Shown here piece by piece: positions 7,721 through 12,846 of a DNA stretch of 12,846 nucleotides. The position numbers were made by a program, and so were the translations under genes. The notes under the pieces were generated by a model. It saw nothing but the letters and a program-made list of their open reading frames with translations. It was not told the origin of the DNA and searched no databases. Source of the stretch: an uncultured Nocardioides sp. (GTDB taxonomy: Bacteria > Actinomycetota > Actinomycetes > Propionibacteriales > Nocardioidaceae); assembly GCF_946885725.1 (NCBI RefSeq), contig NZ_CAMPGZ010000122.1:1-12846 (forward strand). The letters are read 5' to 3'. Each line of letters begins with the position of its first letter. Positions within the stretch are counted from its first letter, which is position 1.

Positions 7721-10273
7721 CTACTCGGTGGCGATCGCCTGCAGTACGTCGAGCTTCGCGGCGCGACGGGCCGGGAAGACCGCCGCGAGGACTCCGACGA
7801 AACCGGCGGCCACGACGTAGCCGCCGAGCTGCAGGACCGGCACGGTGATCACCTCGAGGCCCTCGTCCGCCAGCGTCGACATCAGCGCGAGCCCGAAGAC
7901 GATGCCCATGCCGACGCCGAGCACGGCGCCGAGCACGGCGATCGCGATCGCCTCGAGCCGGATCATCCGGCGCAGCTGGCCGCGGCCCAGGCCGATCGCC
8001 CGAAGCAGGCCGACCTCGCGGGTCCGCTCGATCACCGACAGCGCCAGCGTGTTGACGATGCCGAGCACCGCGATCACCAAGGCCAGGCCGAGCAGCGCAT
8101 AGATGATGTAGAGCATCTGGTCGATCGGCGCACGCTGCTCGTCGGCGAAGCCCTGCTGGTCCTTGACCGTCACCGTCGGCAGCTCGGCGGTCTGCTTCTC
8201 GATCGTCTTCTGCAGCGCGGCCACGTCCGTGCCGGACTCGGTCTGGATCAGCAGGTAGTTGTCGGCCTCGCGGAAGCCGACGTCCTTCAGCGTCGAGAGC
8301 GTGAGCGTGAAGGGGTACGACAGCACCGGGTTGTTGTCGGCGGTGTAGATCCCCGCGACCTCGAGCGCCTTCTCGCCGGTCGGGAAGCCGATCGTCACCT
8401 CGTCACCGACCCCGACGCCCTCGTCCTCCGCGCGGCTGTCGGAGATCAGCACCTTGCCGTCGTCGAGGTCGGTGAGCTCGCCTTCGACCATCGGCACGTT
8501 GGCGACCTGGCGCAGGGACACCGGGTCGACGCCCATGACGCCCTGGCCGTGGCCGTCCACCTGCGCGATGGCGTAGCGCAGCCGGCTCACCGACGCGACG
8601 CCGTCGGTCTGCTCGATCGTGTCCGCGACGGAGGTGGAGAACGGCACGCCGATCACGTTGGAGACGACGAGGTCGCCGTAGAAATTCTCCTCGATCGTCT
8701 CGTCGACGCTGTCCTTCGCGGACGAGCCGAGGATCGACATCGTGGTGACCAGCGCGAGGCCGATCATCAGCGCGGAGGCGGTGGCCGCCGTACGACGCGG
8801 GTTGCGCAGGGCGTTCTGCCCGGCGAGGTTGCCGACCGTGCCGTAGATCTTGCGGTAGACCAGCGCCGACAGCGCGACGACCGGCCGGCTGATCACCGGG
8901 CTCGCGGCCGCCACCCCGAGCAGCACGGCGAGGATGCCGCCACCGACCCACCAGCCGGGGCTCGGGACGTCGGCCAGCAGGCCCGCGCCCATGGCCACGG
9001 CGCCGACCGCGATCAGCGCACCACCCGTGACGAGCCGCCAGTGCAGCGCGGACTCCGGCATCGCCACGTCGTCGCGCAGGGCGGCGACGGGAGCGATCCG
9101 AGCCGAGCGCCGGGCCGGGATGTACGCGGCCACGACGGTGACGAGGATGCCGACGGCGTACGCCGCGATCGGGGTGCGCGCCGCGATGATCAGCTCCTGA
9201 CCGCTCAGGTCGAGGCCGAACGTCGCGAACAGCGCGCGGATGCCCATCGCCAGCACCACGCCCAGGCCGAGCCCGATCGTGGAGCCGACCGCACCGAGCA
9301 CGACCGCCTCGAACATCACCGACCGGGTGACCTGCCGGCGCGAGGCGCCGATCGCCCGCAGCAGGGCGAGCTCGCGGCTGCGCTGCGCGACCAGGATCGA
9401 GAACGTGTTGACGATCAGGAACGACCCGACCACCAGCGCGATGCCGGCGAAGATCAGCAGGAACGTGCCGAGGAAAGAGATCGCCTCGACCAGGTCGGAG
9501 GCGGCCTCGTCGGCGGCCTCGTCGCCGGTGACGGCCTCGAAGCCCTTCGGCAGCGCCGCGGCGACCTCGTCGCGCAGCTCCTCCTGGCTGACGCCGTCCT
9601 CGGCGGTGACCCAGACGTCGTTGAAGACGTTCTCGCCCTCGGTGAAGAGCTTCTGCGCGGTCTTGGTGTCGAACACCGTGATCGTCGCGCCGTTGGTGGA
9701 GCCGCCGTCGGCGAACTCGGCGATCCCGACCAGCGTGGGCCGCAGCACGGCCTCCGAGCTCGACGTCACGAGGTGGACCTGCTCGCCGATCTCGTAGCCC
9801 GCGCGCTCCGCCGTACCGGCGTCGATGGCGACCTCGTCGCCGTTGCGCGGCGGGTGGCCCTCAGTGACAGCGAGCCCCTCGAGGCCGTGCGCGGCCGGAG
9901 CGTCGCTCCAGTTGGCACCGATGCCGGGCGCGCCCTGCCCGCCGATGACCTTGCCGTTCTCGCCGACGACGAACGTGCTGAACGAGTTGACGTTGCCGTC
10001 GGCGCGGGCGGCGCCGTCGACCTTCGCGAGGTCGTCGACCAGCGAGGCCGGGACGGTGCGGGTGGTGGCCGGTCCGTCGTCGTTGTTGGTGCCGGACGGG
10101 CGCACCACGACGTCGCCGACGGACGAGGCGAAGATCGCGTCGAAGCTGCGGCTCAGCGTGTCGGTGAAGATCAGCGATCCCGCGACGAACGCGACGCCGA
10201 GCACGATCGCGAACGTGCTCATCAGGAGGCGCAGCTTGCGCCCCAGGAGTGACTTCCATGCAGCCTTGAACAT
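7721..10273 (-). CDS. ABC transporter permease, MacB/FtsX type, duplicated
   Basis: 850 residues. Two copies of the MacB_PCD-FtsX arrangement are visible. The N-terminal helix is about 17-37 (LMSTFAIVLGVAFVAGSLIF), followed by a periplasmic-type domain (38-265) and an FtsX core (268-395) with helices near 268-292, 320-350 and 370-387. A linker has helices near 415-433 and 443-465. A second amphipathic start (QNALRNPRRTAATASALMIGLALV, 486-509) leads to the second extracellular domain (518-715) and FtsX core (718-840). Each core has the ERTREVGLLRAIG-type coupling motif (SRELALLRAIGASRRQV at 299-315; ERTREVGLLRAIGLGRGQL at 749-767). About ten membrane helices are predicted by eye. Such proteins form exporters or mechanotransmitters with a LolD-like ATPase. 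ATG 10273 overlaps the ATPase stop as TGATG. The substrate is unknown. Confidence 0.93.
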   Translation of the reverse strand: MFKAAWKSLLGRKLRLLMSTFAIVLGVAFVAGSLIFTDTLSRSFDAIFASSVGDVVVRPSGTNNDDGPATTRTVPASLVDDLAKVDGAARADGNVNSFSTFVVGENGKVIGGQGAPGIGANWSDAPAAHGLEGLAVTEGHPPRNGDEVAIDAGTAERAGYEIGEQVHLVTSSSEAVLRPTLVGIAEFADGGSTNGATITVFDTKTAQKLFTEGENVFNDVWVTAEDGVSQEELRDEVAAALPKGFEAVTGDEAADEAASDLVEAISFLGTFLLIFAGIALVVGSFLIVNTFSILVAQRSRELALLRAIGASRRQVTRSVMFEAVVLGAVGSTIGLGLGVVLAMGIRALFATFGLDLSGQELIIAARTPIAAYAVGILVTVVAAYIPARRSARIAPVAALRDDVAMPESALHWRLVTGGALIAVGAVAMGAGLLADVPSPGWWVGGGILAVLLGVAAASPVISRPVVALSALVYRKIYGTVGNLAGQNALRNPRRTAATASALMIGLALVTTMSILGSSAKDSVDETIEENFYGDLVVSNVIGVPFSTSVADTIEQTDGVASVSRLRYAIAQVDGHGQGVMGVDPVSLRQVANVPMVEGELTDLDDGKVLISDSRAEDEGVGVGDEVTIGFPTGEKALEVAGIYTADNNPVLSYPFTLTLSTLKDVGFREADNYLLIQTESGTDVAALQKTIEKQTAELPTVTVKDQQGFADEQRAPIDQMLYIIYALLGLALVIAVLGIVNTLALSVIERTREVGLLRAIGLGRGQLRRMIRLEAIAIAVLGAVLGVGMGIVFGLALMSTLADEGLEVITVPVLQLGGYVVAAGFVGVLAAVFPARRAAKLDVLQAIATE

Positions 10274-11124
10274 CAGACCTGCGCCCCCGCGAGGTCGTCG
10301 TCCTGGCGGGCGACGCGGTCGACCTGCCGCGCGTCCATGCGGGTCATCCGGTCGAGCACGGTCTCGCGGTCCGGGTTGCGGATCTCGTCGACGACCTTGC
10401 CGTCGGCGAGGAAGACCACGCGGTCGGTGAACGCCGCCGCCACCGGGTCGTGGGTGACCATCACGATGGTCTGGCCGAACTCGTCGACCGACCGGCGCAG
10501 CAGTGCGAGCACCTCTGCGCCCGAGCGGCTGTCGAGGTTGCCGGTCGGCTCGTCGGCGAACACGATCGACGGCCGGCTCGCGAGCGCCCGCGCCACGGCG
10601 ACGCGCTGCTGCTGGCCGCCGGAGAGCTGGTTGGGCCGGTGGTCGAGCCGGTCGCCGAGGCCGACGGTCTCGATGACGGTGCGGTACCAGTCGGCGTCGG
10701 GCTTGCGGCCGGCGATGGAGAGGGGCAGCAGGATGTTCTCCTCGGCGGTCAGCGTCGGCACCAGGTTGAACGACTGGAAGACGAAGCCCACCTGGTCGCG
10801 ACGCAGACGGGTCAGCTCCTTGTCCTTGAGCTTCGACAGGTCGGTGTCGCCGATCAGCACCTGCCCGCTGGTGGCGGTGTCGAGCGCCGCGCAGCAGTGC
10901 ATCAGCGTCGACTTGCCGGACCCGGACGGGCCCATCACGGCGGTGAACTCGCCCCGGTGCAGGTCGAGGGTGACGTCGTCGAGCGCGACCACCTTCGCCT
11001 GGCCGGAGCCGTAGGTCTTGGTCAGGTTCCGCACCCGGGCGGCCGGCCCTGCGTGCGAGCCGGCGCGTGCTGCTGCGCCCGAGGCCCCTGAGGTAGTGGT
11101 GTGCGTAATGCTCGTGTCGGTCAC
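10273..11124 (-). CDS. ABC transporter ATP-binding protein, MacB/LolD type
   Basis: 283 residues from GTG 11124. The nucleotide-binding domain follows a 28-residue polar, Thr/Ala-rich leader. Walker A is GPSGSGKST (65-73), the Q-loop FVFQSFNLVPTLTAEENI (114-131), the signature LSGGQQQRVAVARAL (167-181), Walker B SIVFADEPTGNLDSRSG (186-202) and the H-loop VMVTHDPVAA (221-230, H225). The LolD/MacB branch is marked by FNLVPTLTAEENILLPL and DEPTGNLD. It energises the duplicated FtsX permease directly downstream, with which it is translationally coupled (1-nt overlap). An open frame extends 60 codons upstream, but GTG 11124 has AGAGGA about 8 nt before it and the upstream residues look non-coding. 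The C-terminal tail (253-283) is charged. The export substrate is unknown. Confidence 0.95.
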   Translation of the reverse strand: MTDTSITHTTTSGASGAAARAGSHAGPAARVRNLTKTYGSGQAKVVALDDVTLDLHRGEFTAVMGPSGSGKSTLMHCCAALDTATSGQVLIGDTDLSKLKDKELTRLRRDQVGFVFQSFNLVPTLTAEENILLPLSIAGRKPDADWYRTVIETVGLGDRLDHRPNQLSGGQQQRVAVARALASRPSIVFADEPTGNLDSRSGAEVLALLRRSVDEFGQTIVMVTHDPVAAAFTDRVVFLADGKVVDEIRNPDRETVLDRMTRMDARQVDRVARQDDDLAGAQV

Positions 11125-11302
11125 GACGGTTCCTCTCTCGTCCCATCCGCGCGCGGCCGTCCCAGGGCCGTGGCATCGTCGGGGACAACGATCCCGGCAT
11201 CCGGATCGTCCCGGTACCGGATTCCCCACCCCACGATCCCTGGCCCACCCCTGATCCGACCCTGACCATCCGGTGCAGATCTGTCCGGGTCCGCCCCTGA
11301 CC
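11125..11302 (-). promoter_or_regulatory. Repeat-rich promoter region of the ABC exporter operon
   Basis: No gene is seen here. The interval holds a perfect palindrome CCGGTACCGG (11211-11220), an inverted repeat CGATCC/GGATCG (11189-11208), and ATCCGG/CCGGAT arms flanking the palindrome. Direct repeats follow: TCCGACCCTGACC (11255-11267) and TCCGCCCCTGACC (11290-11302), 12/13 identical, plus a weaker CCCACCCCTGATC (11244-11256). On the transcribed strand these read GGTCAGGGxCGGA, spaced 35 and 11 bp. They look like binding sites for a regulator, but I cannot place a -35/-10 pair with confidence. Confidence 0.35.
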
Positions 11303-11315
11303 AACCCGGGTGCCC

Positions 11316-11394
11316 CGTCGCTGCGCGACAGACCGCCGAGGGGTCAATAAATCAGCCTCGTGGGCGGCGTGTCGGTGCAGAGCTGACTCCTCGA
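11316..11394 (+). repeat. 79-bp structured repeat, copy 1
   Basis: The architecture is a hairpin (11317-11329, GTCGC-TGC-GCGAC; loop GCA on the other strand), 5 nt, then a 59-bp core (11336-11394). The core starts CCGAGGGGTCA and ends TGACTCCTCGA, an inverted repeat with two mismatches against the perfect ends of copy 2. It is 52/59 identical to the reverse complement of 12201-12259. The invariant 28-bp block is 11352-11379. An AT-rich patch (AATAAAT) stands out in GC-rich surroundings. It lies downstream of the AlkB-like gene in inverted orientation to copy 2. Confidence 0.85.
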
Positions 11395-11404
11395 CCGGAC
11401 GTTT

Positions 11405-11447
11405 CACTCGCGTCACGACGTGGCTGCACGACGTCCTGATGCGAGTG
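11405..11447 (-). terminator. Imperfect long hairpin downstream of the AlkB-like gene
   Basis: Outer arms CACTCGC (11405-11411) and GCGAGTG (11441-11447) are perfect. TCA/TGA and GACGT (11417-11421)/ACGTC (11431-11435) continue the stem, giving about 15 pairs out of 17 around a 9-nt loop. It lies 66 bp past the AlkB-like stop and may end that transcript. There is no T tract. It could also be a regulatory element of the ABC operon. The rest of 11448-11512 shows nothing further. Confidence 0.4.
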
Positions 11448-11512
11448 CCTGGCTGACTCCGTGCGTCCGTGACCAACCCACGTGCTGGCGGGTGTGCTCG
11501 GTCGTCCTGTGA

Positions 11513-12148
11513 CTAGCGGACGTTGAACGGGCGGTACTGGATGCTGATGCGAGGTCCGACGGCGCGATTGGTCTTGAGCACCGCGTGCTCCCAGGTGCGC
11601 TGGCAGGAGCCACCCATGACGAGCAGGTCGCCGTGGCCCATCGCGAAGGAGATGGAGGCACCGCCAAGGCGCGGCCGGAGCGAGAGTCGGCGGGTGTCGC
11701 CGAGGGAGACGATCGCGACCATCGTGTCCTCGAGCTTGGAGCGGCCGATGGTGTCGCCGTGCCAGGCGACGCTGTCGCGGCCGTCGCGGTAGTAGCAGAG
11801 ACCCGCGGTCACGAACCGCTCGCCGAGCTCGGGCTGGTAGTGCCGACTCAGCGCCTCTCGGGCCTCGACGAGCGCCGGGTCGGGTAGCTCGTCGTGCTCG
11901 CCGTAGAAGCAGAGCAGGCGCGGCACGTCGACGACCCGGTCGTACATCTGCCGGCGTTCTGCGTACCACGGCACGTCGCGCACGAGGCGGGCGAACAGGT
12001 CGTCGGCGCCGCGCAGCCAGCCCGGCCGGACGTCGACCCACGCACCCCGGTCGAGCACGTGCCGCTGAACCTCGCCGTCGAGGGCCCCGACGGTCACGTG
12101 GTCGGCCGCGGGCTCGTCGAACAGGGTGGTCTGGAAGTCGACACTCAT
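11513..12148 (-). CDS. AlkB-like 2-oxoglutarate/Fe(II)-dependent DNA-repair dioxygenase
   Basis: 211 residues. The double-stranded beta-helix core is recognisable. Iron ligands are H-x-D in VAWHGDTIG (about 128-136) and the distal histidine in TWEHAVLK (about 183-190). The 2-oxoglutarate-binding R-x5-R is GPRISIQYRPF near the C-terminus. Other AlkB motifs are CYYRDGRDSVAWHGD, the nucleotide-recognition lid region PWYAERRQMYDRVVDVPR, and SISFAMGHGDLLVMGGSCQRTWEH. AlkB enzymes oxidatively remove alkyl lesions such as 1-methyladenine and 3-methylcytosine. I chose ATG 12148 because an in-frame GTG at 12175 lies inside the LexA-like box; no strong ribosome binding site is visible for either. The gene stands alone, bracketed by the two 79-bp repeats, and is probably damage-inducible. 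Confidence 0.92.
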   Translation of the reverse strand: MSVDFQTTLFDEPAADHVTVGALDGEVQRHVLDRGAWVDVRPGWLRGADDLFARLVRDVPWYAERRQMYDRVVDVPRLLCFYGEHDELPDPALVEAREALSRHYQPELGERFVTAGLCYYRDGRDSVAWHGDTIGRSKLEDTMVAIVSLGDTRRLSLRPRLGGASISFAMGHGDLLVMGGSCQRTWEHAVLKTNRAVGPRISIQYRPFNVR

Positions 12149-12167
12149 GGGACGAGCGTACGTCCAT

Positions 12168-12183
12168 TCGAACACATGTTCTA
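12168..12183. promoter_or_regulatory. LexA (SOS) box-like operator upstream of the AlkB-like gene
   Basis: TCGAAC-ACAT-GTTCTA differs by one base from the actinobacterial LexA consensus TCGAAC-N4-GTTCGA. It ends 19 bp before ATG 12148, a repressor position near the likely transcription start. Placement before a DNA-repair gene makes a true site likely. Binding itself is inferred. Confidence 0.7.
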
Positions 12184-12200
12184 GTGCGCCTCGCCTGTCA

Positions 12201-12279
12201 CCGAGGGGTCAAATGTGCACCGACACGCCGCCCACGAGGCTGAATTAATGACCCCTCGGCGTCATGTCGCGAAGCGACA
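12201..12279 (-). repeat. 79-bp structured repeat, copy 2
   Basis: This is the inverted counterpart of 11316-11394. The 59-bp core (12201-12259) has perfect 11-bp ends, CCGAGGGGTCA and TGACCCCTCGG. Five nt later comes a perfect 6-bp hairpin TGTCGC-GAA-GCGACA (12265-12279). GCGAAGC is the classic extra-stable DNA mini-hairpin. The core also offers a competing pairing, since CGAGG near one end can pair with either the terminal or an internal CCTCG. It sits between the groEL terminator and the AlkB-like promoter. Confidence 0.87.
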
Positions 12280-12296
12280 GGCCCGACGGAGACACG

Positions 12297-12330
12297 AGCA
12301 AGGCCCCTGCCGTGCGGCAGGGGCCTTGCT
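12297..12330 (-). terminator. groEL terminator hairpin
   Basis: AGCAAGGCCCCTGCC (12297-12311) and GGCAGGGGCCTTGCT (12316-12330) form a perfect 15-bp stem with a 4-nt loop, 42 bp past the groEL stop. There is no T tract on the minus strand, which is common for actinobacterial terminators. It separates groEL from the AlkB-like gene on the same strand. Confidence 0.85.
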
Positions 12331-12339
12331 GGTGGAGAG

Positions 12340-12361
12340 GGGTGTTGCCTGGGTGTTGCTA
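12340..12361. repeat. 11-bp tandem repeat in the groEL 3' untranslated region
   Basis: GGGTGTTGCCT (12340-12350) is followed directly by GGGTGTTGCTA (12351-12361), 9 of 11 bases identical including the first nine. It lies between the groEL stop and its terminator. No function is evident. Confidence 0.5.
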
Positions 12362-12372
12362 GAGCGGATGGA

Positions 12373-12846
12373 TCAGAAGTCCATGCCGCCCATGCCGCCG
12401 TCGGCACCGCCGGGCATGGCCGGCTGCTTCTCGGGCTTGTCGGCCACGACGGCCTCGGTGGTGAGGAACAGCGCGGCGATCGACGCGGCGTTCTGCAGCG
12501 CCGAGCGCGTCACCTTGGCCGGGTCGATGATGCCGGTGGCGATCATGTCGACGTACTCGCCGGTGGCGGCGTTGAGACCGTGGCCGGCCTCGAGGTTGCG
12601 CACCTTCTCCGCCACAACGCCGCCTTCGAGGCCGGCGTTGACCGCGATCTGCTTGAGCGGAGCCTCGGACGCGAGCCGCACGATCTGGGCGCCGGTGGCC
12701 TCGTCACCCTCGAGGTCGAGCTTCTCGAACGCCTTGCCGGAGGCCTGGACGAGGGCCACGCCACCGCCGGCGACGATGCCCTCCTCGACGGCCGCCTTCG
12801 CGTTGCGAACGGCGTCCTCGATGCGGTGCTTGCGCTCCTTGAGCTC
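12373..12846 (-). CDS. groEL: Chaperonin GroEL (60 kDa), C-terminal part
   Basis: 157 codons plus stop are visible and the frame continues past the window edge with no start. The sequence is near-invariant for Gro[37 protein letters not shown] (the GGG hinge/ATP-site block), [62 protein letters not shown], ending [16 protein letters not shown]. GroEL forms the 14-subunit folding chamber with GroES and ATP in the cytoplasm. The GGMGGMDF tail is the ordinary housekeeping (GroEL2/Cpn60.2-like) form and not the His-rich tail of actinobacterial GroEL1. This fits a copy that need not be beside groES, but the upstream region is not visible. It is followed by a strong terminator. Confidence 0.97.

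Follow-up and report, generated by a model that had tools for sequence, protein, structure and literature searches.

The window, by which we mean the whole stretch of 12,846 nucleotides analysed, carries an alkB-like gene coding for a 2OG-Fe(II) oxygenase of 211 amino acids (11513-12148, minus strand; Pfam PF13532, gene call and homologues). Its left neighbour is an ABC transporter ATP-binding gene (10273-11034, minus strand; PF00005 and gene call), and on the other side lies the 3' part of groEL, cut by the window end (12373-12846, minus strand; PF00118 and 92% identity to genome G377). Two copies of a repeated element border alkB. Copy 1 occupies 11316-11394 on the plus strand, with an outer hairpin and 5 nt at 11316-11335 and a palindromic core at 11336-11394; copy 2 occupies 12201-12279 on the minus strand, with its core at 12201-12259 and its outer hairpin and 5 nt at 12260-12279. 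The segment between them spans 11395-12200, and its alkB part (11529-12187) lies on the opposite strand relative to the flanking genes in G377, G462 and G717. Upstream of alkB the sequence contains a box, TCGAACACATGTTCTA (12168-12183), which we take to be SOS/LexA-like; by eye, a similar box precedes alkB in G377, G462, G717 and G720, and alkB may therefore be SOS-regulated. A G+C-rich hairpin between groEL and copy 2 (12300-12331) is probably the groEL terminator; comparable hairpins were seen by eye downstream of groEL in G377, G462 and G717.

The two copies, each of 79 nt, are identical at 67 of 79 positions, and form the longest inverted repeat listed in the window (80 nt, 86%; the runner-up measures 43 nt, 77%). 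The best ungapped inverted 80-mer found in the interval 10801-12846 has 69 matches, whereas 30 first-order Markov shuffles reach 49 at most, and the pair is not due to chance. The first-pass annotation had described such a pair, and re-measurement bears out its figures for the cores, which comprise the last 59 nt of each copy: 52 of 59 positions agree, and the longest unbroken block common to both copies is the 28-nt TCAGCCTCGTGGGCGGCGTGTCGGTGCA. The proposed plan of hairpin, core and 11-bp terminal inverted repeat holds for both outer hairpins (stems of 5 and 6 bp) and for the terminal repeat of copy 2 (11/11), but in copy 1 that repeat pairs at 9 of 11 positions. As had also been claimed, the copies enclose exactly one gene, alkB. 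RNA folding of copy 2 is better than that of shuffled sequences (z -3.0 and -3.8), and that of copy 1 is no better (z -1.5 and -0.4). An Rfam search of window positions 11200-12400 gave nothing above gathering score; one of three sub-gathering matches, to COG2908 RNA, overlies copy 1 (16.9 bits against a gathering score of 58.7). Among 45 copies taken from four further genomes, none adjoins the outer hairpin motif (a different 5-bp stem is present at L049), indicating that the core of about 60 bp is the unit of the family and that the outer hairpin is so far confined to the window.

Comparison with relatives, which were reached via alkB, a gene whose best homologues bear Nocardioides or Nocardioidaceae names where they are named, reveals that the gene itself is the rearranged part of the locus. 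Of 46 relatives' loci reached with the in-frame alkB protein, 17 have ABC or groEL beside alkB, and the remaining 29 show neither neighbour. Counted by gene, ABC is opposite to the window arrangement in 14 relatives and the same in 1, and groEL is opposite in 7; counted by genome, alkB runs opposite to the window in 16 of 17 informative relatives and in the same direction in 1 (G720). Among seven genomes of the genus of G717 that were compared, G377, G462 and G717 carry ABC and groEL on one strand and the alkB segment on the other, and no match to alkB was obtained in G718 or G719. Relative to most relatives, then, the window has its alkB inverted, a new finding of this analysis.

The borders of the rearrangement were placed against G377, the closest relative (ABC 94%, groEL 92% and alkB 89% identical). 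Similarity ends at window position 11291 and restarts at 12303; the alkB match in between covers 11529-12187. Copy 1 begins 24 bp past the first of these points and copy 2 ends 23 bp short of the second, which puts an element 23-24 bp inside each end of the rearranged stretch. Window positions 11395-11512, beside copy 1, are without counterpart in G377. The covariance model of the element (see below) finds no copy at the border places of G377, G462, G717 and G720 (best score 12.7 bits, E 0.6). The G377 junction that precedes the alkB promoter is similar to the right half of copy 2, with 3 of 1000 shuffles scoring as high, and copy 1, with 13 of 1000, the stretch having been picked after looking; it is perhaps a decayed copy of the element. 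In the same genome the 382-bp spacer between alkB and groEL (L012) seems to contain a short open frame missing from the window.

We searched for the element beyond this locus. Used as a DNA query, it matches 20 of 341 genomes of one bacterial family at E <= 0.01, with two places each in G575, G377 and G512, a weaker one in G717, and mostly short, weak matches in the others. A pattern anchored on GGCGTGTCG and allowing up to 3 mismatches finds 32 places in G512, 8 in G575, 6 in G377 and 2 in G717, and the same pattern read backwards finds 0 in these four genomes. Forty-seven pattern-matched copies, 32 of them from G512, were aligned (A1, which omits L056, L058, L065, L068 and one strand of L052), and from this alignment the covariance model R1 was built. 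It scores copy 1 at 72.2 bits (11332-11398) and copy 2 at 74.2 bits (12197-12263). R1 matches 61 of the 341 genomes at E <= 0.01, nine of them with at least 14 matches each and two with 7, in a count that scored up to 15 places per genome under strict filters and in which a palindromic place may count once per strand; the model is expected to miss other arm dialects. It finds 8 distinct places in 400 kb of G717 (E <= 4.4e-6, with a weaker one at E 0.058) and 20 in 399 kb of G575 (E <= 0.0021). Class-wide, 8 of 296 genomes match at E <= 0.001; three were already among the 61, and the other five, G083, G170, G274, G160 and G291, have 8, 6, 5, 1 and 1 matches. The copies sit at many other genes, contradicting the idea that the repeats exist only in connection with alkB.

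Searches of plasmids and phages with a 91-bp query gave weak matches only, and a pattern scan of viral contigs gave 0. A pattern scan of genome contigs returned 5 stretches unlike the element outside the pattern itself, from which it follows that this pattern missed the family. Close pairs of oppositely oriented elements also lie at G157:C18:193456/193543, G157:C7:284212/284296 and G663:C180:4064/4554.

An arm, a variable part, a centre, a second variable part and the opposing arm make up the palindromic element, which measures about 60 bp. Most copies have a near-constant centre, CGGCGTGTCG, on which the search was itself anchored. Because the pattern is anchored on GGCGTGTCG and R1 was built from pattern matches, there is some circularity in the search as regards the centre, which is absent from about 8 of 39 model hits read (L111, L113, L114, L116, L117, L119, L121 and L125). 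The arms vary from genome to genome, reading GAGGGGTCA/TGACCCCTC in the window, GAGACG in G512, GACCCGTCA in G717, and GAGCAGACGCAAAAGCCCC in G083 and G170. In a second set of 36 chosen copies (A2, made up of 28 of the 39 model hits, with 11 dropped, and 8 other copies), 89.5% of arm cells are paired; shuffles give 75.3%, none of 500 reaching the observed value, and arms slid out of register pair in 27.1-45.1% of cells. Changes occur on both sides in 8 of 12 arm pairs. RNAalifold on A1 pairs only 9 columns with a small covariation term of -0.35. The pairing in A2 shows that arm complementarity is kept despite genome-specific arms, for which a role as RNA, as single-stranded DNA or as the site of a dimeric protein may be the reason.

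The arms were also examined as words. Each of the 8 exact arm words that occur in 400 kb of G717 falls within an element; of 29 arm words with one mismatch, 14 lie in inverted pairs, against 3 in the reversed control, indicating that some looser half-units exist. Half-units in direct or mixed tandem were seen at L149:9815-9935 (G575), L117 (G167), L121 (G697), L114 (G711) and, beside alkB, L194 (G720). A DNA-uptake-like single word was rejected, since the arm 12-mers do not appear among the words listed as most over-represented in G717 and G575; a word inside the G575 element, TCACTGATTCCC, is over-represented in that genome. The element leaves unexplained the over-represented 12-mers TGTAACGCGGTG/TAACGCGGTGTC (8 times) and CCGGATATCCGG (10 times) of G575 and GATAGTCCGTGA (6 times) of G717.

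Placement relative to genes was scored for 63 copies with a home-made gene caller: 50 with both neighbours called, 3 in genes, 8 without a neighbour, and the window's own 2. Convergent junctions account for 16 of the 50, co-directional ones for 31 and divergent ones for 3. Measured against a baseline of 445 junctions from G575 and G717 only (77 convergent, 252 co-directional and 116 divergent), copies are depleted at divergent junctions (p 0.0003) and over-represented at convergent ones (p 0.008). In G575, 10 of 17 left-hand 3' neighbours stop no more than 3 nt away from the element. A two-domain coding sequence of G717 contains one copy (L137:7616-7682), and near the same place G718 and G377 have palindromes with other arms, which may reflect concerted arm change or repeated insertion. 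Another G717 copy overlaps the start of a carboxylase gene, at a site that is unoccupied in G718, G377 and G462; no target duplication is visible at this one site, where the flanks are not cleanly alignable. With its dispersed copies, its bias toward 3' ends and a G717 site empty in three congeners, the family conforms to the REP/MITE-like kind among the origins first suggested for the pair.

This placement raises the question whether the elements are selected, functional 3'-end hairpins, terminators or protectors of mRNA, and not selfish DNA, the alkB flip being unrelated to them. Such a function would suit the bias toward 3' ends, the avoidance of divergent junctions, the stop codons crowded against the element in G575 and the compensatory changes in the arms. 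It sits poorly with a patchy distribution, in which 61 of 341 genomes match and nine hold at least 14 matches, and with the copies found within or at the start of coding sequences. Furthermore, co-directional copies occur in both orientations (18 along the direction of the genes and 13 against it), no T-run was seen by eye to follow the hairpins, and copy 2 of the window lies past groEL's own hairpin and upstream of alkB. We consider this explanation unlikely as a full account; the family itself we would class as REP-like non-autonomous DNA that may also serve as a 3'-end hairpin.

Our preferred reading, which we regard as reasonably probable, is that a REP-like repeat is present here in two copies and that recombination between them flipped alkB. 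Dispersed palindromes of about 60 bp, with complementary genome-specific arms and mostly a CGGCGTGTCG centre, would accumulate by the 3' ends of genes; in the lineage of the window, two copies would have come to flank alkB in opposite orientation, and recombination between the inverted copies would have flipped the 0.8-kb segment. alkB, usually divergent from ABC and convergent with groEL, would in this way have become co-directional with both, keeping its own SOS-like promoter. Since the SOS-like box is part of the segment and is carried along with alkB, the gene may keep its regulation. The family, its covarying arms, its bias toward 3' ends, the altered orientation and the element at each border are observed; recombination as the cause of the flip, and the spread of the family as non-autonomous DNA by way of some enzyme, are what we infer from them. 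An assembly artefact is an unlikely source of the flip, the longest perfect block of the copies being 28 bp.

Against the preferred reading stands G720, which shares the window's alkB direction relative to ABC with no recognisable element nearby, so that alkB can evidently change direction without such a pair. None of the relatives' loci compared shows the presumed ancestral state, an unflipped alkB between two elements. At another inverted pair, L127 of G717, the enclosed gene is unflipped in G718, the single readable relative. The stretch 11395-11512 that G377 lacks, the failure of copy 1 to fold better than shuffles and the slight covariation that RNAalifold reports on A1 also count against the reading.

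A gene between inverted repeats, oppositely oriented in most relatives, could also be a live invertible switch, in which the segment flips within the population and alters alkB expression. No invertase gene is known beside the segment, though, the copies differ at 12 of 79 positions, and the SOS-like box lies within the segment and would travel with alkB; we judge a switch very improbable. Least credible of all is a composite mobile unit with alkB as its cargo, raised earlier on the strength of two inverted copies that enclose exactly one gene, and which we reject: in-frame alkB protein occurs in 313 of 341 genomes (E <= 1e-60), the ABC or groEL neighbourhood is kept in 17 of 46 relatives examined, and the pair is absent from all 30 relatives' alkB loci inspected, L217 alone having a 26.5-bit match about 840 bp from alkB.

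Returning to the repeat reading, we can extend it tentatively: a trans-acting enzyme other than a RAYT would recognise the CGGCGTGTCG centre, the arms would drift as complementary dialects, spread would be directed to 3' ends, and inverted pairs would flip genes. We think it rather doubtful that this holds as a whole. A common centre, paired genome-specific arms and high-copy carriers beside close non-carriers mean that comparing genomes offers a route to the missing enzyme. How REP-like repeats that lack a RAYT spread is not known, and this family offers a handle on the problem. The alkB locus adds a gene inversion with a copy at either border; short repeats of this sort would then be a source of local change in gene order, and repeats of the REP-like hairpin kind may be able to flip genes.

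The family was not found described in the open-licence literature, judged by titles and abstracts. Small elements that are dispersed, carry terminal inverted repeats and contain no gene are known as MITEs. The element resembles them in being small, geneless, dispersed and bounded by terminal inverted repeats, but it differs in its genome-specific arms, and the one unoccupied site inspected shows no target-site duplication. Of ten genes lying between or next to elements, nine fall into ordinary families and one into none, and no longer element with the same ends or a transposase was found among them. The position of copies after stop codons prompted a comparison with integron attC sites, which were rejected, as the attC core is not in the consensus.

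A REPIN is an inverted pair of related half-units that make one larger palindrome, and its usual partner is a RAYT. The element is alike in pairing inverted half-units in one palindrome, most clearly in G717, but its half-units are not hairpins with a GTAG foot, and no RAYT accompanies it in 11 of 11 carriers. A search for RAYT-type transposases (Y1_Tnp, PF01797) matched 0 of 31 genomes, these 11 included, against 5 of 14 control genomes, and membership of the RAYT-linked REPs was rejected on this ground.

The nearest likeness is to the GTAG and CGTC REPs, which Di Nocera et al. 2013 (PMC3733652) present as short dispersed palindromes, uneven among species, lying mainly between unidirectional or convergent genes, near 3' ends, with some within genes. 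CGTC REPs are reported there without a dedicated transposase, and how they spread without a RAYT is given as an open point. The word 'actinobacteria' does not occur in that paper, although untagged REP-like repeats of M. tuberculosis are mentioned. Our element is likewise a dispersed, multi-copy, intergenic palindrome, and its 3'-end-biased placement agrees with the pattern reported for REPs (PMC3733652). It departs from the REPs so described in measuring about 60 bp instead of 20-40 bp, in lacking a constant unpaired GTAG or CGTC foot tag in A1 and A2, where CGTC appears only within the paired arm of some genomes, and in having the centre as its most constant part, with arms that vary by genome. 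On account of its length, its want of a foot tag or a RAYT and its genome-specific arms, we place the family beside the named REP super-families, as a variant of the REP theme and not as a member.
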